In this document: positions 6,379 through 41,216 of the stretch, one piece after another
Layout of the letters: each line of letters begins with the position of its first letter
How positions within the stretch are numbered: the stretch's first letter is position 1
From: an uncultured Paracoccaceae bacterium
GTDB taxonomy: Bacteria; Pseudomonadota; Alphaproteobacteria; Rhodobacterales; Rhodobacteraceae
Direction: 5' to 3'
DNA length: 64,000 nucleotides
Assembly (NCBI GenBank): GCA_905182105.1
Contig: CAJJAR010000001.1
Location: 1-64,000, forward strand
The notes under the pieces: model-generated
What the model was told of the DNA's origin: nothing
Seen by the model: the letters and a program-made list of their open reading frames with translations, nothing else
The model's database searches: none
Translations under genes and position numbers: made by a program

Positions 6379-7304
6379 GCTGCGTCCTCCTGCACCAAGG
6401 TCACGAAAATGTCTTCGAGGCTGCTTTGACGTGTTGAGACATCGCGCAAAAAAAGACCCGCAGCTGCGATGTCATTCAACAACTGCGTGATGCCTGTACG
6501 CTCACCTCTGGTGTCGTAGGTATAGATCACCGATGTTTTATCATGCGTCTGCGCCAGTTCATATTTTGCCAGTAATTTGGGGATTGTATCGAGCGGATCG
6601 GTCAACTGAACCTCCAACTCTTTTTTACCCATACGCTCCATCAGCTTGTCTTTTTCCTCGACCAACAACAGCTCACCTTTGGCAATGATACCAACGCGAT
6701 CAGCGATGGCTTCAGCCTCTTCGATGTAGTGTGTTGTCAAGATGATCGTCACGCCATCGGCTTTCAAGTCAGCAACGATGTCCCACATGTCTTTGCGCAG
6801 CTCAACGTCAACACCTGCGGTTGGTTCGTCCAAAAACAGGACCCGTGGTTCGTGGGCCAATGCCTTAGCGATCAGGACGCGGCGCTTCATACCACCCGAC
6901 AATTCTTTGACCGCATTGTCGCGTTTATCCCAAAGAGACAGGCGGCGCAGGATGTGTTCAATCGCTGCCTCATCACGTGATTTACCAAACAAACCACGTG
7001 AAAAACGCACTGTGTTGATGACTTTCTCAAACGGCTCAAGCGCGACTTCTTGCGGCACCAAACCAATCAAACTGCGGGCTGCGCGAAAGTCATCCTTGAT
7101 ACAGTTGCCAGCAACCTTAACGTCACCAGACGTTACAGAGGTAATGCCACAAATCGTTGAAATCAATGTGGTTTTACCTGCACCATTAGGACCAAGCAGA
7201 GCAATAATCTCACCTTCTTCGATCTCAAGGTTCACGCCTTTTAGTGCCTCAAACCCACCATCATAGGATTTGCGCAGGTCTTTGATTTCTAGAATGTTTG
7301 CCAT
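6375..7304 (-). CDS. ABC transporter ATP-binding protein (ABC-2 exporter)
   Basis: 309 residues. Walker A is GPNGAGKTT near residue 38, the signature is LSGGMKRR, Walker B is [13 protein letters not shown] and the H-loop is [10 protein letters not shown]. The C-terminal 80 residues form the extension common to DrrA/NodI-type exporters. The start at 7302-7304 is favoured by GGAGG 7 bp upstream; an upstream in-frame Met has no site. It is translationally coupled (ATGA overlap) to the ABC-2 permease. Substrate unknown. Confidence 0.92.
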
Positions 7305-7388
7305 GTCGGCCTCCACAGAATGCTTGTGCACTCAATACGGAGTTCACCAGCCTGATACCACTGAGTAATTGCGCACAAGCCGTGCGCG

Positions 7389-7910
7389 TTATTCTTTGCC
7401 AGCCAGACGACCCAGCCAACCTTTTTTCGCTCCCTCTTCAGGCTTCTCTTCAGTCGCTTCAGGTTCTGCCGGACCTTCAAGATGTTCTTGCAGATTGCCA
7501 AAGAACTGATCCGCTATTTTCTTGGAAAATCCATCAATAATACGGCTGCCCAATTGTGCTAATTTACCGCCGACTTTGGCTTCGACATCATAGCTAAGCT
7601 CACAACCATCAGCCGTTTCAATCAACGCGACTTTGGCAACACCTTTGGCAAATCCGGCAGCGCCGCCTTTGCCTTGACCCTCGATGCAAAGCGATTGGTT
7701 TTCAATCATATCAGAAAGAGTAACCTGTCCTTTGAACGTCGCTTTTACGGGCCCAACTTTTTGCGTCACCGACGCCTCAAAACCATCCGTTGGGTTTCCA
7801 GTGACTTCAGTCGCACCGGGTACACATGCCTTAAGAACCTCAGGGTCCAATAGGGCTGCAAATACTTCGGCTGAAGTCGCATTGATCCGGCGCGTGTCGG
7901 TCATTTTCAT
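7389..7910 (-). CDS. CoxG-family SRPBCC protein
   Basis: 173 residues. The first 150 are a CoxG/START-like domain: NATSAEVFAALLDPEVLKAC, VPGATEV, a KVGPVKATFKGQV strand, GQGKGGAAGFAKG and GGKLAQLGSRIIDGFSKK. The C-terminal 25 residues are acidic then basic and low complexity. Family founders help membrane anchoring of carbon monoxide dehydrogenase, but no coxSML genes are near, so here it is simply a CoxG-like protein. It is divergent from the EamA transporter across about 90 bp that must hold both promoters. Confidence 0.85.
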   Translation of the reverse strand: MKMTDTRRINATSAEVFAALLDPEVLKACVPGATEVTGNPTDGFEASVTQKVGPVKATFKGQVTLSDMIENQSLCIEGQGKGGAAGFAKGVAKVALIETADGCELSYDVEAKVGGKLAQLGSRIIDGFSKKIADQFFGNLQEHLEGPAEPEATEEKPEEGAKKGWLGRLAGKE

Positions 7911-8003
7911 TTGGTCAAATCCCTCGTTCTGGTCAGCTTACCCTAACCACAATAAATCCACATTGCTATTGCTGAAAACGAATTCCATGATAGGCCTAAT
8001 TCC

Positions 8004-29492: not shown

Positions 29493-30551
29493 TCAGCGGA
29501 TCCGCACTTCAGTGACTTTGTCAAACAGGCGCGCAGAATCAGCATCCACCTTGAGGCCTACAATTGTACCCGCTTGTGAACGAAAATTTCCTCGCTCTTC
29601 GACTACAATTTTTTCACCAGATGCACCCACTAAATATGCATATGAAACGCCACCAAGACTCTCTGTCATCTCAATACTGTGGGTGTCACCGTTGATATCA
29701 ATGGCTAAATTCTCAGGCCGCAAACCTAGCTCAACAGGCGTGCCGTCTGCAGGTAAAGTGACATCCATCTTGATGGAATTTTGCAATCCTGGAACTTCAA
29801 TCATTCCTTCGACAACTTGGCCACTCAAAAAATTCATTGCTGGGCTGCCGATAAAGCCAGCAACAAATTTATTGTCAGGATCGCGATATAGGTCCATTGG
29901 AGCGCCAACTTGCTCAATTACGCCTGCCCGCAAAACCACTATTTTATCAGCTAGCGTCATAGCTTCGACCTGATCATGGGTAACGTAAATCATTGTTGCC
30001 CCAATTTCTTTATGCAAACGGGCAATTTCGACACGCATTTCCACCCTCAGTTCCGCATCCAAATTTGACAGCGGCTCATCAAACAAAAATACTTCTGGTC
30101 CACGCACAATTGCTCGACCGATTGAAACCCTCTGTCGCTGACCTCCAGACAGCGCTGCAGGCTTGCGTTTCAGGTAATCATCTAACTTCAAGATGCGGCT
30201 AGCTTCAGTAACTTTTTCTTTAATTATAGCCTTGGGATAGCCGTTCATTCGCAAACCAAACCCCATATTCTCCTGTACAGTCATGTGCGGATAAAGGGCA
30301 TAGGTTTGAAAAACCATTGCTACACCTCGACGAGCTGGGTCCTCACCAGTAACGTCTCGGTCTCCAATGGTGATGGCACCAGCGGTTGTTTCCTCCAACC
30401 CTGCCACCATTCGCAATAGAGTGGATTTGCCACATCCCGAAGGCCCAACGAAGACACAAAACTCACCATCCTTAATATCAAGGTTGATCCCATGGATTAC
30501 TTGAACATCACCATATTTCTTGGTGATATTTGATAGTTTTACACCTGACAC
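29493..30551 (-). CDS. Sugar ABC transporter ATP-binding protein (UgpC/MsmK-like)
   Basis: 352 residues. Walker A GPSGCGKST near residue 38, Q-loop MVFQTYALYPHMTV, signature LSGGQRQRVSIGRA, Walker B VFLFDEPLSNLD, H-loop YVTHDQVEAMTL, then a complete TOBE regulatory domain (LGLRPENLAI; ARLFDKVTE). It energises carbohydrate import, presumably with the binding protein and two permeases encoded rightward from 31550, as no other ATPase is near. The start is a GTG at 30549-30551 with GGGAGA upstream. It follows the IclR gene by 20 bp. Confidence 0.93.
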   Translation of the reverse strand: MSGVKLSNITKKYGDVQVIHGINLDIKDGEFCVFVGPSGCGKSTLLRMVAGLEETTAGAITIGDRDVTGEDPARRGVAMVFQTYALYPHMTVQENMGFGLRMNGYPKAIIKEKVTEASRILKLDDYLKRKPAALSGGQRQRVSIGRAIVRGPEVFLFDEPLSNLDAELRVEMRVEIARLHKEIGATMIYVTHDQVEAMTLADKIVVLRAGVIEQVGAPMDLYRDPDNKFVAGFIGSPAMNFLSGQVVEGMIEVPGLQNSIKMDVTLPADGTPVELGLRPENLAIDINGDTHSIEMTESLGGVSYAYLVGASGEKIVVEERGNFRSQAGTIVGLKVDADSARLFDKVTEVRIR

Positions 30552-30571: not shown

Positions 30572-31357
30572 TCAGCTCCAAGTTGGAAACTGCCATAATT
30601 CTGCTTCAGTCCCAATTAAATTCGCAGCTTTTAGTAAATTGGGTCTTTGGTTTTCTAAATCTTCAATTTGGTATCGATTTGTGGATGTTGCAATTGATAC
30701 TGCCCCTAAAACTCGGCTCTGGCGTGTTAAAATAGGGCATGCAATCGAGATAATTCCTTGCTCATGCTCCTCACGGTCATATGCAACACCAACAGTCTTC
30801 ACTTTCTCAAGCTCCAATACCAACGCAGCGCGGTTTGTCAGCGTGAAGGGGGTACATGCCGCATAAGATTGTTGATCCAAAGCCTTTTTTTGTTCGGCCT
30901 CCGGCATAAAGGCCAAAATCGCCTTGCCAACACCCGTACAATAACCGGGGGCAATTTTTCCAGCTTGGGCTAATGTTTCAAAATGATCAGAGACTTTGCA
31001 CTTATCAACAAAAAGAACATGGCCGTTATCTAACTGCGCCAAGTGCACAGCTTCACCAACTTTTGCTGCCAGATCCTCAATATAGGGCCGCGCTACTGGT
31101 GCCAGTGAGCTATGACGCCAAGCCGAATGCGCCAAGCTTACCAAACGTATACCCATCGAGTAGGTTTGGCGTTCAGCGTCAAAAGTTAGCATGCCTTGAT
31201 TAGTAAGTGTTTGCACAAATCTGTACAATGTCGGCTTAGGAAACGGGCTGTTAGCCAATAACTCGGAAAACCTGACGGGACGCTGAAAGGATGCCACTTG
31301 GTCTAAGACCTGCATTGCCTTGCCTACAGTACCATCTGAATTGGGAGCATTATACAT
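30572..31357 (-). CDS. IclR-family transcriptional regulator
   Basis: 261 residues. An N-terminal winged helix (AMQVLDQVASFQRPVRFSEL, then PFPKPTLYRFVQTLTNQGML) is followed by the IclR effector domain with HLAQLDNGHVLFVDK, GVGKAILAFMPE and VAYDREEHEQGIISIACPI. It is divergent from the sugar-binding protein gene across 192 bp and probably controls both directions of the cluster, with a galactoside or its breakdown product as effector (inference). Confidence 0.92.
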   Translation of the reverse strand: MYNAPNSDGTVGKAMQVLDQVASFQRPVRFSELLANSPFPKPTLYRFVQTLTNQGMLTFDAERQTYSMGIRLVSLAHSAWRHSSLAPVARPYIEDLAAKVGEAVHLAQLDNGHVLFVDKCKVSDHFETLAQAGKIAPGYCTGVGKAILAFMPEAEQKKALDQQSYAACTPFTLTNRAALVLELEKVKTVGVAYDREEHEQGIISIACPILTRQSRVLGAVSIATSTNRYQIEDLENQRPNLLKAANLIGTEAELWQFPTWS

Positions 31358-31549: not shown

Positions 31550-32806
31550 ATGCGTTACTTATTAAAGGCGACTGTAGCATCGATCGCCACTGCGATAGCA
31601 CTAGCTGGCCCAGCATCCGCTGAACTGACTGGGAATTTAAAGATCAACCTCGATACATCCAATCCTGCACCACGCGCAACAATGGAAACTTTGATTGCAA
31701 AATTCCAAGCTGAAAATCCAGAATTAAACATTACAACTAATGTGATTGATCGCGAGGCGTACAAGACCCAAATACGTAACTTTTTATCGGCAGATGCGCC
31801 TGACGTACTGACATGGTATGCTGCCAACCGGATGAAACCTTATGTTGAGGCTGGATTGTTAGAAGATGTATCTGACATGTGGGCCGATGGTACCGATATT
31901 GCCAATGAATTAGCTTCTACAAAAGGTGCTCTGACAATTGATGGTAAACAATGGGGTGTTCCTTACACATACTATCAGTGGGGTATCTATTACAGAAAAG
32001 ATATTTACCAAGAGTTAGGTCTCTCCGAGCCTGCTAATTTTGACGATATGTTGTCTAATTGTGAAGCAATGATTGCGTCTGGACGCAAGTGTTACACCAT
32101 AGGAAACAAATGGCTTTGGACCGGTGCTGGTTGGTTTGATTACCTTAATTTACGGACAAACGGATTTGACTTCCACATGCAAATGGCTGCTGGTGAAATC
32201 GAATGGACAGATTCCCGCGTTCGCGAAACATTTGATAACTGGGGCAAACTTATTCGCATGGGCGCGTTCATCGATGACAATCAAAATAAAGACTGGCAGC
32301 AATCATTACCATTTATGATTGATGGTTCTGCTGGGGCCATTTTGATGGGTAATTTCGCTGTTTCACCACTGCGTGAGGGTGGATTGACAGACGATCAATT
32401 GGATTTCCATCAATTTCCAGCAATCACTCCAGGAATTGCTATGGCAGAAGATGCTCCAACTGACACGTTCCATATAGCTGCCAATGCCAAAAACAAAGAT
32501 AATGCTAGAGCTTTCTTAGCGTATATTGTTTCGTCTGAAGCTCAGACCGAAATGAATAACGGTGCCAACTTGGGTCAACTGCCAGTTAACTCAAAGGCAT
32601 CTGTTGACGATGACAAATTCCTTAATAAAGGCTTTGAAATGCTGTCGTCAAACAGCCAAGGCGGCGTAGCTCAATTCTTCGACCGTGATTTCCCAGCTGA
32701 GATGGCGCAAGCTGCCATGGAAGGCTTCCAAGAGTTCATGGTTTACCCAGACAACTTGGATGATATCCTAGAGCGCATCGAAGGTGTTCGCAAAGAAGCT
32801 TACTAA
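31550..32806 (+). CDS. Sugar ABC transporter substrate-binding protein (family 1)
   Basis: 418 residues. A signal peptide (MRYLLKATVASIATAIALAG, cleavage after ASA near residue 24) leads to a mature periplasmic protein. Family-1 features: ATMETLIAKFQAENPELNI, SADAPDVLTWYAANR, PYTYYQWGIYYRKDIY and IDGSAGAILMGNFA. Several aromatic residues, including Trp, fit sugar stacking. A strong GGGAGG precedes the ATG. It is the first gene of the rightward operon and is followed by two hairpins that should raise its level over the permeases. Galactosides are the likely ligands from context. Confidence 0.93.
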   Translation: MRYLLKATVASIATAIALAGPASAELTGNLKINLDTSNPAPRATMETLIAKFQAENPELNITTNVIDREAYKTQIRNFLSADAPDVLTWYAANRMKPYVEAGLLEDVSDMWADGTDIANELASTKGALTIDGKQWGVPYTYYQWGIYYRKDIYQELGLSEPANFDDMLSNCEAMIASGRKCYTIGNKWLWTGAGWFDYLNLRTNGFDFHMQMAAGEIEWTDSRVRETFDNWGKLIRMGAFIDDNQNKDWQQSLPFMIDGSAGAILMGNFAVSPLREGGLTDDQLDFHQFPAITPGIAMAEDAPTDTFHIAANAKNKDNARAFLAYIVSSEAQTEMNNGANLGQLPVNSKASVDDDKFLNKGFEMLSSNSQGGVAQFFDRDFPAEMAQAAMEGFQEFMVYPDNLDDILERIEGVRKEAY

Positions 32807-32955: not shown

Positions 32956-33897
32956 ATGGCCAACACTTCTCCATGGAATAAGACATTGGCCAAACAAGGC
33001 TGGTATAAGAGGAATGAAATCGCGATTACGCCATGGCTATTTTTATTGCCGGCTCTCATCATGTTTGCGATTTACGTAGTCTTTCCAATTCTTCAAAGTT
33101 TCCGCATCTCTTTATTTAAATGGGATGGCCTTGGATCGTTAGCCACACATGGCGAATATGTTGGAATGGCAAATTATGAAAAATTGCTTACTCGAGACCG
33201 TTCCTTTAATATTTCAATTTGGAACAACCTAAAATGGTTGATTTTTTACCTTGCCTCGATACCAGCTGGATTATTTATTGCATTATTTCTTAATCAAACT
33301 GTGCGCGGCATTCGATTATATAAATCGCTCTTTTTTTTCCCATTCGTGATTTCTCAGATCGTCGTTGGTTTAGTTTTTACTTGGTTTTATGATCCACAAT
33401 TTGGGCTATTCAACGGAATCATTGGTTTTATTGGCTTTGAGCCAATCAATGTTTTGGGCGACCCTTCCTTAGCTACATATGGGGTGATAGCGGCTGGGCT
33501 CTGGCCACAGACCGCATATTGTATGATCCTTTATCTTACTGGCCTAAATTCCGTTGACCCTGAACAGATCGAAGCAGCGCGCCTAGACGGTGCCAAAGGT
33601 ATGCGAATGCTTTGGCACGTCATCTTGCCGCAATTGCGTCCAGCAACATTTATCGCGTTTGTGGTGACCATAATAGGCTCACTGCGGTCATTCGATTTAA
33701 TCTCAATCATGACAAATGGTGGCCCATTCGGCTCATCACGGGTGCTAAGTTTTTATATGTTTGAAAAATCCCTATCAGAATACGGTTTTAAAATGGGCTA
33801 CGGTGCTGCGATTGCAGTCATTTTATTTTTAATTATGATGGTATTTATTGGTTATTTTTTGTGGCGGATGTACCAAGATGAAAAAATCACCAATTGA
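32956..33897 (+). CDS. Sugar ABC transporter permease (MalF-like)
   Basis: 313 residues with six transmembrane helices. The first follows ITPWLFLLPALIMFAIYVVF; the EAA coupling loop is EQIEAARLDGAKGMRMLWHV near residue 210. GGAGG precedes the ATG. It forms the membrane channel with the next gene. This part of the cluster is noticeably AT richer than the enzyme genes that follow. Confidence 0.93.
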   Translation: MANTSPWNKTLAKQGWYKRNEIAITPWLFLLPALIMFAIYVVFPILQSFRISLFKWDGLGSLATHGEYVGMANYEKLLTRDRSFNISIWNNLKWLIFYLASIPAGLFIALFLNQTVRGIRLYKSLFFFPFVISQIVVGLVFTWFYDPQFGLFNGIIGFIGFEPINVLGDPSLATYGVIAAGLWPQTAYCMILYLTGLNSVDPEQIEAARLDGAKGMRMLWHVILPQLRPATFIAFVVTIIGSLRSFDLISIMTNGGPFGSSRVLSFYMFEKSLSEYGFKMGYGAAIAVILFLIMMVFIGYFLWRMYQDEKITN

Positions 33898-33932: not shown

Positions 33933-34778
33933 ATGTTCCCAAAACCAATTGAAAAGTCATCACGCGCATGGCAACTTGGCTACCAAGTGCTATTGCCTAT
34001 CGTGATGTTGCTCTGGCTTGCCCCATTGTTGGCCGTAGCACTTTTCTCGATAAGGCCAGACACAGATTTTTTAGTAGGCAATTACTGGGGCTGGCCTTCA
34101 TCTTTTGAGATGATAAAAAATTACAGTATGGTATTTAGTTCGGCTATGCCCCGCTACATCATGAATTCATTCCTAATCACCATTCCAACGGTAATCGGCG
34201 CGGTGGCACTCAGCTCTATGGCCGGTTTTGCGCTTGGTGTTTACAAATTCCGTGGTAACTTACTTGTCTTTTTCATGTTTATTGCCGGTAATTTCGTACC
34301 ATTTCAAATATTGATGGTGCCAGTTCGTGATCTGACACTGGACATGGGACTTTATAACACCAAAACTGGCTTAGTACTGTTCCACATCGCATTTCAGACA
34401 GGATTTTGTACCCTATTTATGCGTAATTTTATCAAAGCGTTGCCCTATGAGCTAACAGAGGCGGCCCGTGTGGAAGGTATAGCAGAATGGCGGATATTCT
34501 GGTACGTAGTATTACCCCTGATGAAACCTGCGATTGCAGCCCTTTCAGTCTTAATTTTTACCTTCATCTGGAATGATTACTTCTGGGCGATTGTGCTCAC
34601 GCAGGGTGAAAATGCCCAGCCAGTAACTGCTGGGATCACCAGCTTTAATGCACAGTTTCGAGCAATGTATCATCTCATGAGTGCGGGCTCAATCATTGCT
34701 GCTCTACCACCTGTTTTGATGTTTTTCTTAATGCAAAAACACTTCATTGCAGGCCTCACTTTGGGCGCCGTGAAATAA
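33933..34778 (+). CDS. Sugar ABC transporter permease (MalG-like)
   Basis: 281 residues, six transmembrane helices, with the EAA loop ELTEAARVEGIAEWRIFWYV near residue 178 and the typical end MQKHFIAGLTLGAVK. It lies 35 bp after the first permease. The base composition changes from AT rich to about 53 percent G+C within a short distance after its stop. Confidence 0.93.
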   Translation: MFPKPIEKSSRAWQLGYQVLLPIVMLLWLAPLLAVALFSIRPDTDFLVGNYWGWPSSFEMIKNYSMVFSSAMPRYIMNSFLITIPTVIGAVALSSMAGFALGVYKFRGNLLVFFMFIAGNFVPFQILMVPVRDLTLDMGLYNTKTGLVLFHIAFQTGFCTLFMRNFIKALPYELTEAARVEGIAEWRIFWYVVLPLMKPAIAALSVLIFTFIWNDYFWAIVLTQGENAQPVTAGITSFNAQFRAMYHLMSAGSIIAALPPVLMFFLMQKHFIAGLTLGAVK

Positions 34779-34803: not shown

Positions 34804-36162
34804 ATGACAAAGATTACCTTTATCGGTGCCGGCTCTACGATCTTTATGAAGAACATCGTGGGCGACGCATTGTTGACCCCTGCCCTTGCCAACAGTCACT
34901 TTGCGCTGATGGACATTGACGCTGGCCGTTTGTCCGAAAGCGAGGCTTTGGCCCGCGCAATGATCAAGACCGTAAGTACAGGCGCAACAGTCACGACCCA
35001 CTTGGATCGTCGCGAAGCGTTGGACGGTGCGGATTTTGTAGTCACAGCGTTTCAAATCGGAGGCTACGAGCCATGCACGGTCACCGATTTTGACATTCCA
35101 AAGAAGTACGGCCTGCGCCAAACCATTGCTGACACTTTGGGCGTTGGCGGCATTATGCGAGGTCTTCGCACGGTTCCAGTGTTGTGGAGCATTGCACAAG
35201 ACATGATTGACCTGTGTCCAAACGCGACTTTGTTGCAATACGTGAACCCGATGGCGATCAACACGTGGTCCTTGGCCGAACGGTTCCCAGCATTAAAGCA
35301 AGTTGGTTTGTGCCATTCTGTTCAGAACACGGTTCAAGAGCTGTCCCATGATTTAGACATCAATCAATCATCGGTCCGCTACAAGGTTGCTGGCGTCAAT
35401 CACGTCGCGTTCTTCTTGCGCCTTGAACAAGAAGTCGGCGGCGAGATGCGTGATCTATATCCTTTGCTAAACAAGGGTTATGCGTCTGGCGCATTGCCTA
35501 AATCACCATTTCTAATGCCACGTTGCGACAACAAAGTGCGCTATGAAGTTATGGATCAACTTGGCTATTTCTGCACCGAAAGTTCAGAGCACTTTGCTGA
35601 ATACGTTCCGTGGTTTATCAAGGAGGGTCGCGAAGATCTGATCAAAGAATTCTCGATCCCCCTGGATGAATATCCGATGCGCTGTGTTGAACAGGCAGCA
35701 GAGTGGAAAGAACAAGCGGCAACAATGATGACCTGTGGCAGTGTCGAGGTTTGCAAAAGCCATGAATTTGCATCCGAACTGATGAGCGCCATAGTCACTG
35801 ACACACCTTATGTCATGTATGGCAACTTACCCAACCACGGTCAGCTTCCACAGTTGCCGACAGGTGCTGCGGTTGAAACGCCTTGTTTGGTTGATGCCAA
35901 CGGTATTCAGCCGACAGTGATCAACGACATTCCCCCACAATTGACGGCTCTCATGCGCACCCAGATCAACGTGCAGGAACTCACAGTCCGCGCATTGTTG
36001 GACGAGAACCCAGAACACATCTATCACGCTGCAATGATGGACCCGCATACTGCGGCTGAGCTGGATATGCGCCAAATTCGCTCCTTGGTGGATGAATTAT
36101 TGATCGCCCATGGCGACTGGTTGCCTGACTGGACACGCGGTGCGGTAAGGAAAAAAAGATGA
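34804..36162 (+). CDS. GH4-family alpha-galactosidase/alpha-glucosidase (MelA-like)
   Basis: 452 residues. GH4 enzymes use NAD+ and a divalent metal. The N-terminal Rossmann motif is ITFIGAGSTIF. Metal and active-site features are QYVNPMAINTW (N149), LCHSVQ (C170, H171) and VAGVNHVAFF (H200). The NPMAINTW form is that of the alpha-galactosidase/alpha-glucosidase branch rather than 6-phospho-glycosidases, which suits import of unphosphorylated sugar by an ABC system. It overlaps the next gene by 4 bp. Cytoplasmic. Alpha-galactoside preference is inferred from neighbours. Confidence 0.88.
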   Translation: MTKITFIGAGSTIFMKNIVGDALLTPALANSHFALMDIDAGRLSESEALARAMIKTVSTGATVTTHLDRREALDGADFVVTAFQIGGYEPCTVTDFDIPKKYGLRQTIADTLGVGGIMRGLRTVPVLWSIAQDMIDLCPNATLLQYVNPMAINTWSLAERFPALKQVGLCHSVQNTVQELSHDLDINQSSVRYKVAGVNHVAFFLRLEQEVGGEMRDLYPLLNKGYASGALPKSPFLMPRCDNKVRYEVMDQLGYFCTESSEHFAEYVPWFIKEGREDLIKEFSIPLDEYPMRCVEQAAEWKEQAATMMTCGSVEVCKSHEFASELMSAIVTDTPYVMYGNLPNHGQLPQLPTGAAVETPCLVDANGIQPTVINDIPPQLTALMRTQINVQELTVRALLDENPEHIYHAAMMDPHTAAELDMRQIRSLVDELLIAHGDWLPDWTRGAVRKKR

Positions 36163-36926
36163 CACAGAACGCAACATTTCACGACATTACTGGCAAGTCC
36201 GTTTACATAACAGGTGGCGGGTCGGGCATCGGTGCGTCCCTGACTGACGGGTTCTTAGCACAGGGTGCGAATGTCGCGTTCATTGGCAGATCAGACGCCA
36301 CAGCGTTTGTGGCCGAGATGGAAGCGAAACACGGTCGCGCACCACTGTTTTTGCAAGGCGACATCACAGACACCAAACATTTGCAGGCCACAATGCGCCA
36401 AGCAGCTAAGGCCCACGGCGGCTTGGATGTCCTGGTAAACAATGCAGCCAATGATGACCGCCACGTATTGGACGAGGTCACCCCTGAATATTGGGATTGG
36501 ATGCAGTCGATCAATCTCAAATCCTACTACTTTGCCTGCCAAGAAGCCGCGCGCCTGATGAAGGCATCGGGTGGTTCAATCGTGAATTTCAGCTCGATCA
36601 GCTACATCATGGGTGGTGCCGGTTATACGGCTTACACCTCTGCCAACGGTGGGATCACGGCAATGTCACGCAGCTTGGCCCGTGAGTTGGGACCTAAAAA
36701 AATTCGTGTGAATGCGCTGGCACCTGGTTGGGTTTTGACACCAAAGCAATTGGACAAGTGGGCCACGCCGGATGCACTGGCAGGACATTTGGCGGCGCAA
36801 TGCTTGAAGGAACATTTGACCCCTAAAGATATTATTGATGCCGTGCTATTCCTGTCCTCTAACACCAGCCGTATGATGACAGGTCAGTGTATGGTCGTAG
36901 ACGGCGGCGTGGTTGTAACAGGGTGA
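36159..36926 (+). CDS. SDR-family oxidoreductase, probable D-galactose 1-dehydrogenase, catalytic Lys replaced by Asn
   Basis: 255 residues. Cofactor motif TGGGSGIGASL, NNAAND, N119 in SINLKS, S146 in VNFSSISY and Y159 are in place. The Y-x3-K motif reads Y-T-S-A-N, so residue 163 is Asn (AAC at 36645-36647) where SDRs have the Lys that lowers the Tyr pKa and binds the nicotinamide ribose. The rest, including RVNALAPGWVLTPKQ, resembles rhizobial D-galactose dehydrogenase. In context it would oxidise galactose to galactonolactone. It overlaps the GH4 gene by 4 bp. Activity is in doubt because of N163. Confidence 0.78.
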   Translation: MTQNATFHDITGKSVYITGGGSGIGASLTDGFLAQGANVAFIGRSDATAFVAEMEAKHGRAPLFLQGDITDTKHLQATMRQAAKAHGGLDVLVNNAANDDRHVLDEVTPEYWDWMQSINLKSYYFACQEAARLMKASGGSIVNFSSISYIMGGAGYTAYTSANGGITAMSRSLARELGPKKIRVNALAPGWVLTPKQLDKWATPDALAGHLAAQCLKEHLTPKDIIDAVLFLSSNTSRMMTGQCMVVDGGVVVTG

Positions 36927-36932
36927 TATGAA

Positions 36933-37841
36933 ATGAGCGAACAAGTGACACCAGATTGGATTGCCGTTGACTGGGGCACCACACACTTGCGAGTTTGGGC
37001 AATGCAAGGTGGCACTCAGCTTGCCCATGCTCAATCAGATGATGGCATGGCCAAACTGGAACGTGACCAGTTTGAAGGTGCCTTATTGAAACTGATCGAA
37101 GGGTGGCTTGGAACCAGCACAATGCCCGTCATCGCCTGTGGCATGGTTGGCGCGCGCCAAGGTTGGGTCGAAGCACCCTACACTGCGGTCCCTGCCAAAC
37201 CCGATCACAGCCAACATGCGCTTCCTGTATGCGATGACCCACGTCTTCATGTGCGCGTCATTCCAGGGCTTAAACAAGCATCTCCAGCCGATGTTATGCG
37301 CGGTGAAGAAACACAGATCGCCGGATTTCTGGCCCTTAATTCTGGCTGGGATGGTGTCATTTGCCTTCCAGGCACCCATACCAAATGGGCACATGTCAGC
37401 GCCGGTGAGGTCGTCAGTTTTCAGACCTACATGACAGGCGAACAGTTTGAGTTGTTGTCCACCTCATCCGTATTACGCCATTCTGTTGATACTGACGGTT
37501 GGGACAAACCCGCCTTTGAGGAAGCATTGGCTGACAGTCTTTCGCGCCCCGAACGGATTTCGGCAAATCTGTTTAATTTACGCGCCTGTGATTTGCTAAA
37601 TGGGCAATCAAAAGAAGTTGCGCGTGCGCGTCTTTCTGGCCTGTTGATCGGTGCCGAATTGGCTGCTGGCCGTCCGTTCTGGTTGGGCCAACAGGTTGCC
37701 GTCGTCGGGGCCAACAACTTATCTCAAATTTACGCCGATGCCTTGGCCGCCCAGGGTGTCCCAGCAACTGTGGCGGATGGTGCCCGTATGGCATTGGCAG
37801 GTCTTCAAGCGGCCTACCGCCTTGTAAAGGAAACAGCATGA
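36933..37841 (+). CDS. dgoK: 2-dehydro-3-deoxygalactonokinase
   Basis: 302 residues. DgoK phosphorylates 2-keto-3-deoxygalactonate at C6. Family features: an N-terminal IAVDWGTTHLRVW phosphate-binding loop, CGMVGARQGWVEAPY, GEETQIAGFLAL and CLPGTHTKWAHV. It lies 6 bp after the SDR and overlaps the aldolase gene by 4 bp. Confidence 0.94.
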   Translation: MSEQVTPDWIAVDWGTTHLRVWAMQGGTQLAHAQSDDGMAKLERDQFEGALLKLIEGWLGTSTMPVIACGMVGARQGWVEAPYTAVPAKPDHSQHALPVCDDPRLHVRVIPGLKQASPADVMRGEETQIAGFLALNSGWDGVICLPGTHTKWAHVSAGEVVSFQTYMTGEQFELLSTSSVLRHSVDTDGWDKPAFEEALADSLSRPERISANLFNLRACDLLNGQSKEVARARLSGLLIGAELAAGRPFWLGQQVAVVGANNLSQIYADALAAQGVPATVADGARMALAGLQAAYRLVKETA

Positions 37842-38443
37842 GCCGCCCACTAATTGCAATTCTTCGCGGGATCAAACCGTCCGAAGCCGTTGACGTGGCC
37901 GCGGCCCTTTTAGATGCTGGGATTGACCGGATCGAAGTGCCTACAAATTCACCTGATCCTTTCGAAAGCATCGGCAATATTGTTGATGCCTTTGCTAAGG
38001 ATGCATTGATCGGTGCAGGTACGATTTTGACAACCGAACAGGTTGATCAAGTTGACGCAGTTGGGGGCAAACTGATTGTGTCACCAAACTGCGATCCAAA
38101 GGTCATTGCACACACGAAAGCCAAAGGCATGCAAAGCTGGCCCGGTGTGTTCACACCAACTGAAGCTTTTGCAGCACTTCAAGCGGGCGCAGATGGGTTA
38201 AAGTTATTCCCCGGCTCAATGGCCGGTCCATCGGGCCTGAAAGCGATGCGGGCCATCTTGCCAGTTGGGACCGAAGTGTTCGCGGTCGGCGGCGCAGGAC
38301 CGGACAATTTTGACAAGTGGATTGCAGCGAGTGCTGACGGCTTTGGGCTTGGCTCTGCCATCTACAAACCTGGCATGACGGCAAAAGATGTGGGTGTGGC
38401 TGCAAAGGCGATCGTCGCCGCATATGACGTAGCCATCTCGTGA
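37838..38443 (+). CDS. dgoA: 2-dehydro-3-deoxy-6-phosphogalactonate aldolase
   Basis: 201 residues, a KDPG/KDPGal aldolase (class I). The Schiff-base lysine is K122 in GLKLFPGS; AILRGIKPSEA at the N-terminus and GAGTILT near residue 59 are family blocks. It splits KDPGal into pyruvate and glyceraldehyde-3-phosphate. It overlaps dgoK by 4 bp and the lactonase gene by 4 bp. No dehydratase domain is fused to it. Confidence 0.94.
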   Translation: MSRPLIAILRGIKPSEAVDVAAALLDAGIDRIEVPTNSPDPFESIGNIVDAFAKDALIGAGTILTTEQVDQVDAVGGKLIVSPNCDPKVIAHTKAKGMQSWPGVFTPTEAFAALQAGADGLKLFPGSMAGPSGLKAMRAILPVGTEVFAVGGAGPDNFDKWIAASADGFGLGSAIYKPGMTAKDVGVAAKAIVAAYDVAIS

Positions 38444-39300
38444 GCCGCATCTTCGATGATCGGGTCTGTGCATTGGGTGAAGGCCCGTTGTGGCACCCAA
38501 CCCGCCAACAGCTTTTCTGGTTTGATATTGTTGACAAACGCCTGCTGACGCGAACCAATGATGGGCCGCAGGAATGGCAGTTTGACGAACATGTTTCGGC
38601 CGCTGGTTGGCTTGACCATGACACGTTACTTATTGCCTCGGAAACTGGGCTTTGGAGGTTTTCCCTAAACGACGGGTCCCGCGAGTTGGTGATTGCGCTG
38701 GAAGCTGACAACCCGATCACACGTTCTAATGATGGACGTACCGATCCGTGGGGCGGATTCTGGATTGGAACGATGGGTAAGAACGCCGAAACGGGTGCAG
38801 GTGCGATCTATCGTTTGTACAAGGGGGAACTGCGCAAACTGTTTCCATCCATCACAATTTCAAATGCAATTTGCTTCAGCCCTGACCGCCAATTTGCATA
38901 TTACACAGACACCGTGACACGATTGGTCATGCGCCAGCAGTTAGAGCCGCAAGATGGCTGGCCCACGGGGGAAGCAGAGTTTTACGTTGATCTACGGTCT
39001 GAAAACCTAAACCCAGACGGCGCTGTCATAGATGCCGACGGGAATATGTGGCTTGCGCAATGGGGCGCATCACGCATCGCATGTTATTCGAAGGATGGGC
39101 AGTTTATAAACGCCATCGAATTCGATGCATTGCAAGCCTCCTGCCCTGCATTTGGCGGTCCAGAATTGCGCACCATTTTCTGCACAACCGCAGCCATTGA
39201 TTTGTCAGTAGAAACGCGTGCGGAACAACCCTCGAACGGTATGACATTCCTGTCAGAAAGTGTCGGTACGGGCCAATCAGAACATCAGGTGATCCTATGA
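38440..39300 (+). CDS. SMP-30/gluconolactonase-family lactonase
   Basis: 286 residues, a six-bladed beta-propeller metal lactonase. Metal-binding residues are suggested by the Glu in LGEGPLWHP, the Asn-Asp in RSNDGRTDPWGGFWIGTMG and the Asp in LNPDGAVIDADGNMW. It should open galactono-lactone to galactonate. The start is a GTG at 38440-38442 that overlaps the aldolase stop. It overlaps the GH42 gene by 4 bp. Confidence 0.9.
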   Translation: MSRIFDDRVCALGEGPLWHPTRQQLFWFDIVDKRLLTRTNDGPQEWQFDEHVSAAGWLDHDTLLIASETGLWRFSLNDGSRELVIALEADNPITRSNDGRTDPWGGFWIGTMGKNAETGAGAIYRLYKGELRKLFPSITISNAICFSPDRQFAYYTDTVTRLVMRQQLEPQDGWPTGEAEFYVDLRSENLNPDGAVIDADGNMWLAQWGASRIACYSKDGQFINAIEFDALQASCPAFGGPELRTIFCTTAAIDLSVETRAEQPSNGMTFLSESVGTGQSEHQVIL

Positions 39301-41216
39301 TTTCAACACTCGGCGTATGCTATTATCCTGAACATTGGGGTGAGGCGATGTGGGCACGCGATGCAGCGCGCATGGTGGAAACTGGTATCACTTGGGTTCG
39401 TATCGGCGAATTTGCATGGAGCCGTTTAGAAAAGGTGGAGGGCACATTCACGTTTGAATGGCTGGACCGTGCGATTGCTATATTGGCGGATGCTGGGCTG
39501 AAGGTTGTGATGTGCACACCCACAACCACGCCCCCGCGTTGGATGATTGAAAAACATCCCGACATGCTGGCTGTTGATGCAAACGGCAATCCGCGCAAAT
39601 TTGGATCACGTCGTCATTACTGCTTTAGTCATCAAGGCTATATTCAAGATTGCGAGCGGATCACCCGCGTTTTAGCCAATCGTTATGGCGCGGACCCGCG
39701 TATTCATGCGTGGCAGATCGATAATGAATATGGCTGCCATGACACCATTATCAGCTACTCAGATGTGGCGCGGGCTGCGTTCCAAGAATGGTTGACCGAT
39801 CGTTATGGCGATGTTGAGGCACTGAACACTGCATGGGGCAATGTCTTTTGGTCGATGGAATACGATCGTTTTGACCAGATCGATTTGCCCAATCTAACTG
39901 TTACTGAACCCAACCCTGCCCATGTCATGGCTTTTCGCCGTTTCAGTTCCGATCAAGTTGTTAAATTCAACCGCGTCCAAGTGAACGTTCTACGCGCAGC
40001 AACTGATGTGCCTTTGATCCACAACTACATGGGCCGCATCCTAGACTTTGACCACTTCGAGGTGGGCGAAGATCTGGATATCGCGTCTTGGGACAGCTAC
40101 CCAATTGGTTTTCTATCGGACCGCTTGGAAGGGGACGACGATCACAAAGCTGCGTTCTTGCAGCAGGGTGATCCTGACATGCAGGCCTTTCACCACGATC
40201 TATACCGCGCCGTTGGCAAGGGCCGCTGGTGGGTGATGGAGCAGCAACCCGGCCCAGTGAACTGGGCACCTTATAACCCTGCTCCGCTAGACGGCATGGT
40301 TCGTTTGTGGAGTTGGGAAGCAATTGCGCACGGTGCTGAAGTTGTCAGCTACTTCCGTTGGCGTCAGGCTCCCTTTGCCCAAGAGCAGATGCACGCGGGC
40401 CTCTTGCGAGCCGATGACACCCCTGCAGCAGGAATGGCAGAAGCCGCACAAGTAGCACAGGAAATCGCTGCGCTTGGACCATTGGTTCAAGTTCAAGCCA
40501 GTGTTGCGTTGATCTTTGATTACCCCTCTGACTGGGCGTGGAACACGATGCCGCAAGGCGCTGACTTTGATTACTTCCGTTTGGTATTCTCAGCCTATCG
40601 CGCACTGCGCCGTGCAGGACTTTCCATTGATATCATTCCCAGCACACAGCATAATTTTAATGGATATAAACTGGTGTTCGCACCTGGCTTGGCCAACACG
40701 GATCAAACGTTGATGAATGGTTTGCATGACTGCGCTGCACTGGCTGTCCTTGGACCACGCACAGGGACAGTTACGGATGAGTTGAGCATCCCAACCCAGG
40801 CACAGCCCGTTATCCCGGAACTGGACATAAAAATTGAACTCAGCGAGAGCTTCCCACCAAGTCATGTTCGTTCTGTTGAGGGTGGTGGTTCAGTAGTGCA
40901 CTGGATGGAACAACTATCATCCTCCTCGCCTGTCTTAATGAAGACCGAAGGAGGGGCAACGGTCCTGACTGGTGATGATCAGATGTGGTATTTGGGTTCT
41001 TGGCCAGACGAGACCCTTTGGGATCGTTTGGTTAAGATGGCGACGGCCCAAGCGGGCCTTGAAATCACAGCACTACCCGATGGTCTGCGCTTGCGTGTGG
41101 CTGGAGCGGTTCAGTTTGCGTTTAATTACTCGGCGCATTCAATTTCATGGAATGGTCAAATTTTTGAACCCTGTACCGTAACAGCATGGGATTCTAAAAG
41201 ATCACTCTTGAAGTGA
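39297..41216 (+). CDS. GH42 beta-galactosidase
   Basis: 639 residues. The N-terminal TIM barrel begins LGVCYYPEHWGEAMWARDA. The acid/base is E144 in WQIDNEYGCH and the nucleophile E315 in WWVMEQQPGPVNW. A trimerisation domain (about 390-580) and a small C-terminal beta domain follow. No signal peptide, so it works on imported beta-galactosides in the cytoplasm. It is the last gene of the cluster, overlapping the lactonase gene by 4 bp. The exact linkage preference cannot be read from sequence. Confidence 0.94.
   Translation: MISTLGVCYYPEHWGEAMWARDAARMVETGITWVRIGEFAWSRLEKVEGTFTFEWLDRAIAILADAGLKVVMCTPTTTPPRWMIEKHPDMLAVDANGNPRKFGSRRHYCFSHQGYIQDCERITRVLANRYGADPRIHAWQIDNEYGCHDTIISYSDVARAAFQEWLTDRYGDVEALNTAWGNVFWSMEYDRFDQIDLPNLTVTEPNPAHVMAFRRFSSDQVVKFNRVQVNVLRAATDVPLIHNYMGRILDFDHFEVGEDLDIASWDSYPIGFLSDRLEGDDDHKAAFLQQGDPDMQAFHHDLYRAVGKGRWWVMEQQPGPVNWAPYNPAPLDGMVRLWSWEAIAHGAEVVSYFRWRQAPFAQEQMHAGLLRADDTPAAGMAEAAQVAQEIAALGPLVQVQASVALIFDYPSDWAWNTMPQGADFDYFRLVFSAYRALRRAGLSIDIIPSTQHNFNGYKLVFAPGLANTDQTLMNGLHDCAALAVLGPRTGTVTDELSIPTQAQPVIPELDIKIELSESFPPSHVRSVEGGGSVVHWMEQLSSSSPVLMKTEGGATVLTGDDQMWYLGSWPDETLWDRLVKMATAQAGLEITALPDGLRLRVAGAVQFAFNYSAHSISWNGQIFEPCTVTAWDSKRSLLK

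Follow-up and report, generated by a model that had tools for sequence, protein, structure and literature searches.

Gene content of the locus

The window (the whole 64,000-nucleotide stretch of DNA analysed here) carries a galactoside-to-galactonate (De Ley-Doudoroff) operon, the genes of which are collected in Table 1 together with the SDR residues discussed below. The gene under study encodes an SDR-fold protein. Its open reading frame is intact, starts within the stop of the GH4 gene that precedes it and leaves 6 bases between its own end and the next gene; the 255-residue frame and the overlapping start bear out a preliminary description in which the gene was unbroken and lay inside an operon. 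Membership of the SDR superfamily is evident from the Pfam adh_short_C2 domain (193.5 bits) and from Foldseek (TM 0.95 against 7wwx), and the coenzyme motif TGxxxGxG is present as T18-G-G-G-S-G-I-G. The protein has the Asn, Ser and Tyr of the classical Asn-Ser-Tyr-Lys tetrad and lacks the Lys: the active-site motif is YTSAN (i.e. YxxxN), and Asn163 lies opposite the Lys of YxxxK in alignment with 7wwx, 4lvu and 9gwu. Codons and alignment agree here with the preliminary description, which had Asn in place of the catalytic Lys and Asn119, Ser146 and Tyr159 intact. The same genome holds 26 SDR-like matches; among the 12 retrieved, ten have Lys at this site, one has Ser (L012, G000:C25:49806-50561; motif YSIAS) and the window SDR has Asn.

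Table 1. Genes of the operon and selected SDR residues, with coordinates in the window and the basis of each assignment.
Feature	Coordinates	Strand	Basis
ABC transporter ATPase	29493..30551	-	Translation; UgpC-type ATPase annotated at the equivalent place in L059
IclR-type regulator, divergent	30572..31357	-	Translation; IclR annotated at the equivalent place in L058 and L059
Sugar ABC transporter binding protein	31550..32806	+	SBP_bac_1
Two sugar ABC permease genes	32956-33897, 33933-34778	+	ORFs; equal order annotated in a relative
GH4 alpha-galactosidase	34804..36162	+	PRK15076 above cut-off
SDR-fold aldose 1-dehydrogenase, probably D-galactose, 255 aa	36159..36926	+	Pfam adh_short_C2 5.5e-57; best solved relative 7wwx
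Gly43-Arg44, end of strand beta2, NADP-type, where NAD-type relatives have Asp	36285..36290	+	Rule from excerpt of PMC12133307
Asp99, Arg101, equivalents of the C2-OH and C3-OH sugar contacts in sulfoquinovose dehydrogenase	36453..36461	+	Excerpt of PMC12133307
Asn119 (codon AAT), tetrad Asn retained	36513..36515	+	Translation, alignment
Tyr123 (codon TAC), helix alpha4, covaries with 163	36525..36527	+	Homologue alignments, trees
Ser146, tetrad Ser retained	36594..36596	+	Translation, alignment
Tyr159, tetrad Tyr retained	36633..36635	+	Translation, alignment
Asn163 (codon AAC), at the Lys site of YxxxK	36645..36647	+	Translation, homologue alignment
Gln197, equivalent of Gln198 (sugar C3-OH) in sulfoquinovose dehydrogenase	36747..36749	+	Excerpt of PMC12133307
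2-keto-3-deoxygalactonokinase DgoK	36933..37841	+	PF05035
2-keto-3-deoxy-6-phosphogalactonate aldolase DgoA	37838..38443	+	PRK09140 above cut-off
SMP-30-type sugar lactonase	38440..39300	+	PF08450
GH42 beta-galactosidase	39297..41216	+	PF02449

The window's own operon has no galactonate dehydratase gene. IlvD/Edd and MR_MLE genes elsewhere in the genome are candidate galactonate dehydratases. Relatives often carry an IlvD/Edd gene immediately upstream of the SDR (25 of 107 Asn loci of at least 9 kb). This dehydratase is present directly before the SDR in some loci and absent in others, and GH4 and GH36 alpha-galactosidases swap at one operon position across related loci. About 15 kb from the SDR operon in genome G010, an IlvD/Edd-type gene (G010:C6:166618-167848) matches in pieces with stops in frame and is probably a pseudogene or an assembly error. 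A galactokinase (GalK) domain was found in none of six genomes of the genus (the window genome is 88.5% complete and one congener 100%), and the same domain search was positive in 10 of 14 control genomes.

Asn163 is a conserved trait of one clade

Homologues were collected from relatives, a GTDB scan, plasmids (12 of the 85 records with a match were examined) and region fetches. A match at E <=1e-65 was obtained in 183 of 394 genomes of the family, and one at 1e-58 in 58 of 385 genomes of the class. Sequences with at least 40% identity over about 220 or more aligned residues were kept and identical proteins were merged; 13 loci with lower identity or a short alignment were dropped (including L055, which is partial and has Asn), and L130 and L134 are one region. 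Residue 163 is Asn in 158 of the resulting 197 distinct homologues and Lys in 39, with nothing else observed. One of the 158 (L180) was read from a tblastn alignment and stands outside the 157 aligned and tree rows, all of which have N119, S146 and Y159. In a tree of 196 rows built with column 163 removed, the 157 Asn rows and 13 Lys rows fall on one side of a branch with an SH-aLRT of 90, and the 26 rows outside this clade all have Lys; deep branches are moderately supported (SH-aLRT 80-94). Asn163 is a conserved trait of the clade. A single origin of the Asn163 rows was weakly rejected (p-AU 0.039) by a test chosen after the tree had been seen. Residue 94, which corresponds to the leading Asn in the NNAG-type motif, is Ser (VSNAAND) in 21 of the 157 aligned Asn rows, these being Roseobacter and Sulfitobacter rows (L030-L044 and relatives).

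The preliminary description had allowed that the unusual base might be a sequence error. A sequencing or assembly error at codon 163 is refuted by the 158 distinct Asn sequences, whose genomes were assembled separately, and by the use of both Asn codons (AAT in 105 and AAC in 53). Since both Asn codons are common and the other two third bases specify Lys, third-position changes evidently occur at this codon, and to Lys only rarely. In comparison with L024, the nearest relative with the full operon, the SDR gene gives dN 0.010, dS 0.25 and a ratio of 0.041, and its operon neighbours give ratios from 0.029 (DgoK) to 0.20 (SMP-30); dS by the NG86 method is saturated in most gene pairs and the ratios refer to near pairs only. 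The dN/dS value and the use of codon 163 rule out a pseudogene or a gene in decay.

Both forms occupy the same place in the operon

A DgoK gene lies within 3 kb of the SDR in 151 of 171 clade loci, that is, 141 of 158 with Asn and 10 of 13 in-clade loci with Lys, and some of the misses reflect short contigs, as certain fetched regions stop at contig ends. The presence of DgoK near both kinds of locus indicates that the Asn and Lys forms fill one pathway slot. Lys-type SDRs from outside the clade, on Sinorhizobium meliloti pSymB (L066) and in Phyllobacterium (L063, L064), are also accompanied by DgoA and DgoK. For a plasmid of Sulfitobacter sp. S190 (L060, 7825-8678), the PLSDB gene table, which is incomplete, splits DgoK into two short entries, so that the operon may be damaged in this plasmid copy.

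This setting bears on the choice of substrate. The description of the protein as galactose-dehydrogenase-like fits the operon and the nearest solved relative, which is an L-arabinose 1-dehydrogenase. That relative also leaves room for an active oxidoreductase that has a different sugar as substrate or runs in reverse, as does the occurrence of some clade members with a lactonase in surface-polysaccharide loci that have no DgoK; against this stand the alpha- and beta-galactosidases, DgoK and DgoA around the window SDR, and we regard a different sugar or direction as unlikely. The loci in question are those of Thalassovita gelatinovora pAge77 (L061) and Sulfitobacter sp. D7 p4SUD7 (L062), where an SDR and an SMP-30 lactonase are found at about position 7000 among glycosyltransferase genes, with rfb and kdsA in addition in L061; residue 163 is Lys in L061 and Asn in L062. 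An SDR with SMP-30 and no DgoK is also seen in L150, L153 and L164.

Residue 123 changes together with residue 163

A co-change of residue 123 with residue 163 was newly found here. Tyr123 is present in 153 of the 157 aligned Asn163 rows and in none of the 39 Lys163 rows, where residue 123 is His (11), Gln (1) or Leu (1) inside the clade and Gln (19), Ala (3), His (2), Phe (1) or Ser (1) outside it. The four Asn163 rows with another residue are L088 and L093 (His), L155 (Gln) and L161 (Cys); DgoK adjoins all four, which indicates that Tyr123 is not strictly required. Normalised mutual information between the two columns is 0.899 over all rows (the runner-up, adjacent column 122, scores 0.671) and 0.848 within the clade (runner-up 0.628). 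Out of 31,375 pairs of columns separated by more than 4 positions, 123-163 comes 5th on corrected mutual information and 9th on mean-field DCA.

The association also holds on the trees. All four changes inferred at 163 in the first tree fall on branches where 123 changes, and when the tree was rebuilt without columns 123 and 163 all five did so. Read with L066 as root, the five events are a first gain of Asn163, three losses (L130, L153 and the base of a group of 15 rows) and a re-gain inside that group (L050, L100, L102, L104); the matching changes at 123 are, in the same order, Q to Y, Y to H, Y to L, Y to H and H to Y. Of the 390 branches, 15 carry a change at column 123, and the hypergeometric p is 4e-8 as against 0.0019 for the next column (196), values that are uncorrected for the 254 columns and ignore branch lengths. 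A 63-row tree also gave five out of five (p 1e-6; next column 188, 0.006). These statistics rest on four or five evolutionary events, the number varying with the tree, and a comparison of independent pairs yielded too few for a sign test. The data show that residue 123 has coevolved with residue 163.

A later check covered 398 genomes of the phylum, 73 of which had a match at 1e-55, and contributed 30 loci; the 22 of these under new ids stand outside the tree. Among the 22, Tyr123 accompanies Asn163 in 10 of 10 loci (6 new and 4 from regions already used) and Lys163 in 0 of 12, several of them from one genus, where residue 123 is His (10), Gln (1) or Ser (1). DgoK and DgoA are both present at 10 of the 12 Lys163 loci, and the occurrence of Lys in this same operon type suggests that Lys163/His123 is the older state.

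Other candidates for a compensating residue were considered. A Lys moved onto helix alpha4, as in polyketide ketoreductases, was rejected because position 119 stays Asn. Lys121 is found in 138 of 157 Asn rows, with Arg in 17, and also in the isolated Lys reversions L130 and L153, and so does not track residue 163. Lys196 is found in 137 of 157 Asn rows, and Thr160 in 120 of them and in none of the 13 in-clade Lys rows. Both are associated with Asn163, but each changes together with 163 in only three of the five events of the full tree.

Predicted structure, sugar contacts and coenzyme

The AlphaFold model of the window SDR has a mean pLDDT of 95.1 and a pTM of 0.93. One helix (109-134) holds Asn119 and Tyr123 and another (157-180) holds Tyr159 and Asn163, each pair being one helical turn apart. 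If positions 119 and 159 lie on opposite sides of the active site and point towards one another, as their equivalents do in SDRs generally, then with these one-turn spacings residues 123 and 163 should be neighbours.

The equivalents of all three sugar contacts of sulfoquinovose dehydrogenase, given as Asp99, Arg101 and Gln198 in an excerpt of PMC12133307, are present in the window SDR, and an alignment of 68 rows shows no variation at D99, R101, N119, S146, Y159 and Q197. At the end of strand beta2, most of the clade has Gly-Arg or Gln-Arg and not Asp, which is the NADP-type pattern, and R44, the one basic residue placed there, occurs in 152 of the 157 aligned Asn rows. The window SDR is probably NADP-linked on this pattern. 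A switch between NAD and NADP tied to Asn163 was rejected, since Asn163 also occurs with the NAD-type Asp43 (L053, L157, L178, L264, L265); an NADP-type site is thus not required for Asn163.

We can now weigh the possibility that dehydrogenase activity has been lost and that the protein is kept as a regulator, scaffold or sugar sensor, with galactose oxidised by another enzyme. Loss of the catalytic Lys usually cripples SDRs, and other enzymes might be at hand. A 40% identical SDR with Lys is encoded in the same genome (L002; positions 7242-7991 of region L233, on G000:C6), and a Gfo/Idh-type galactose dehydrogenase may exist: a search of G000 and G004 gave ten matches, nine of which were judged by eye, and one match (L237) compared with the PDB gave 12 matches at 1e-10, 4ew6 not among them. 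The neighbours of the Lys-bearing SDR, however, read as subunits of a molybdo-hydroxylase (CO-dehydrogenase-like) and not as galactose genes, an unusual setting for a sugar dehydrogenase. Moreover, the window SDR retains the coenzyme glycines, the tetrad Asn, Ser and Tyr and the sugar-contact residues, and the Lys and Asn forms interchange at one operon position; we consider loss of activity highly improbable. A blocked pathway, which had also been proposed for this operon, is likewise disfavoured by the low dN/dS, the invariant D99, R101 and Q197, the DgoK gene near most clade loci and the GalK result in the six genomes.

A candidate mechanism for sugar oxidation by a Lys-less SDR

The case for an altered, Lys-less active site is strong but indirect. 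We think it likely that the window SDR is an active aldose 1-dehydrogenase, which would convert D-galactose to D-galactonolactone with NADP+, and in which Asn163 and Tyr123 would together replace the Lys; the best reading of the alignments is that the pair Lys163/His(Gln)123 has given way to Asn163/Tyr123 in its clade. The enzyme would then catalyse the first oxidative step of the surrounding De Ley-Doudoroff operon. Tyr159 would remain the acid/base, aided by Ser146 and Asn119, while Asn163 and Tyr123, from two adjacent helices, would fill the space of the Lys with their side chains, and their hydrogen bonds, in place of an ammonium group, would hold the nicotinamide ribose hydroxyls and the water chain. 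The missing positive charge may be tolerable because an anomeric hydroxyl exceeds an ordinary alcohol in acidity and because NADP+ already carries a positive charge on its nicotinamide. The earlier suggestion of a different proton relay survives through the co-change of 123 and 163; the chemistry we infer from the sequences.

Whether Tyr123 would take part in proton transfer or serve packing only is where readings of an active enzyme part. Coupling of 123 and 163 could reflect packing, with Asn163 alone keeping the ribose contact and Tyr123 taking up the room that the Lys vacated, without any role in proton transfer. The exchange of Lys plus Gln or His for Asn plus Tyr would be roughly volume-neutral, and the four Asn163 rows that dispense with Tyr123 still adjoin DgoK. 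Lys rows, however, vary widely at 123 (His, Gln, Ala, Ser, Phe, Leu), whereas the Asn rows have Tyr almost throughout and never Phe, and we judge packing alone to be rather unlikely, though less so than a different sugar. As for the fuller version of our preferred reading, we advance only tentatively the idea that a widespread Lys-less clade of classical SDRs oxidises sugar through a neutral two-tyrosine relay, with Tyr123 hydrogen-bonded to Asn163 and the ribose, and that the Lys/His and Asn/Tyr designs are interchangeable, having switched four or five times in both directions within the same operon.

SDRs make up one of the largest enzyme superfamilies, in which the Lys is regarded as all but indispensable, and annotators are tempted to dismiss a protein without it as dead. 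The preliminary description had named the existence of many close, active Asn homologues as what would overturn its concern; the close homologues are indeed numerous, whereas their activity is a prediction. The findings warn against labelling Lys-less SDRs as inactive, and the pairing of Asn163 with Tyr123 suggests a natural alternative route to the same chemistry. A clade in which the pair switches reversibly is a natural experiment on the charge of the Lys in a native background, and because two single-base changes (AAY to AAR and TAY to CAY) interconvert the designs, the role of that charge can be tested.

Comparison with known systems

Loci of the De Ley-Doudoroff type have been predicted in Rhodobacteraceae, with an IclR regulator, a CUT1 ABC transporter and an alpha-galactosidase, and the excerpt of that report (PMC5507952) mentions neither a missing Lys nor the type of dehydrogenase in these galactoside loci. 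Among open-licence papers, we saw none on the clade or on an aldose SDR with Asn for Lys in the titles and abstracts of the matches listed.

The best Foldseek match to the window SDR is L-arabinose 1-dehydrogenase from Herbaspirillum huttiense (7wwx; TM 0.95, 43% identity). The tetrad Asn, Ser and Tyr align between the two proteins, but 7wwx has YxxxK and a Ser at the position of Tyr123. Sulfoquinovose 1-dehydrogenase from Pseudomonas putida (9gwu) is a classical SDR that oxidises an aldose at C1, as is proposed for the window SDR; it differs in its complete tetrad (Asn119-Ser147-Tyr160-Lys164), in the Ala at position 123 and in its use of NAD with Asp45 (excerpt of PMC12133307).

An excerpt of PMC3144213 gives YxxxN as a motif of complex-type SDRs, and one of PMC10864336 mentions it too. 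The window SDR resembles these enzymes in the motif itself, but is a lone chain of 255 residues and not a multidomain protein, with a KR domain score (PF08659) of 49.1 bits as against 193.5 for adh_short_C2. Complex-type YxxxN SDRs are the ketoreductases of polyketide and fatty acid synthases, and these carry a swapped Lys at the position of the tetrad Asn. In the window SDR and in all 157 aligned Asn rows, by contrast, position 119 is Asn. We do not file the window SDR as a complex SDR, because it is a free-standing classical chain in which the tetrad Asn is unchanged.
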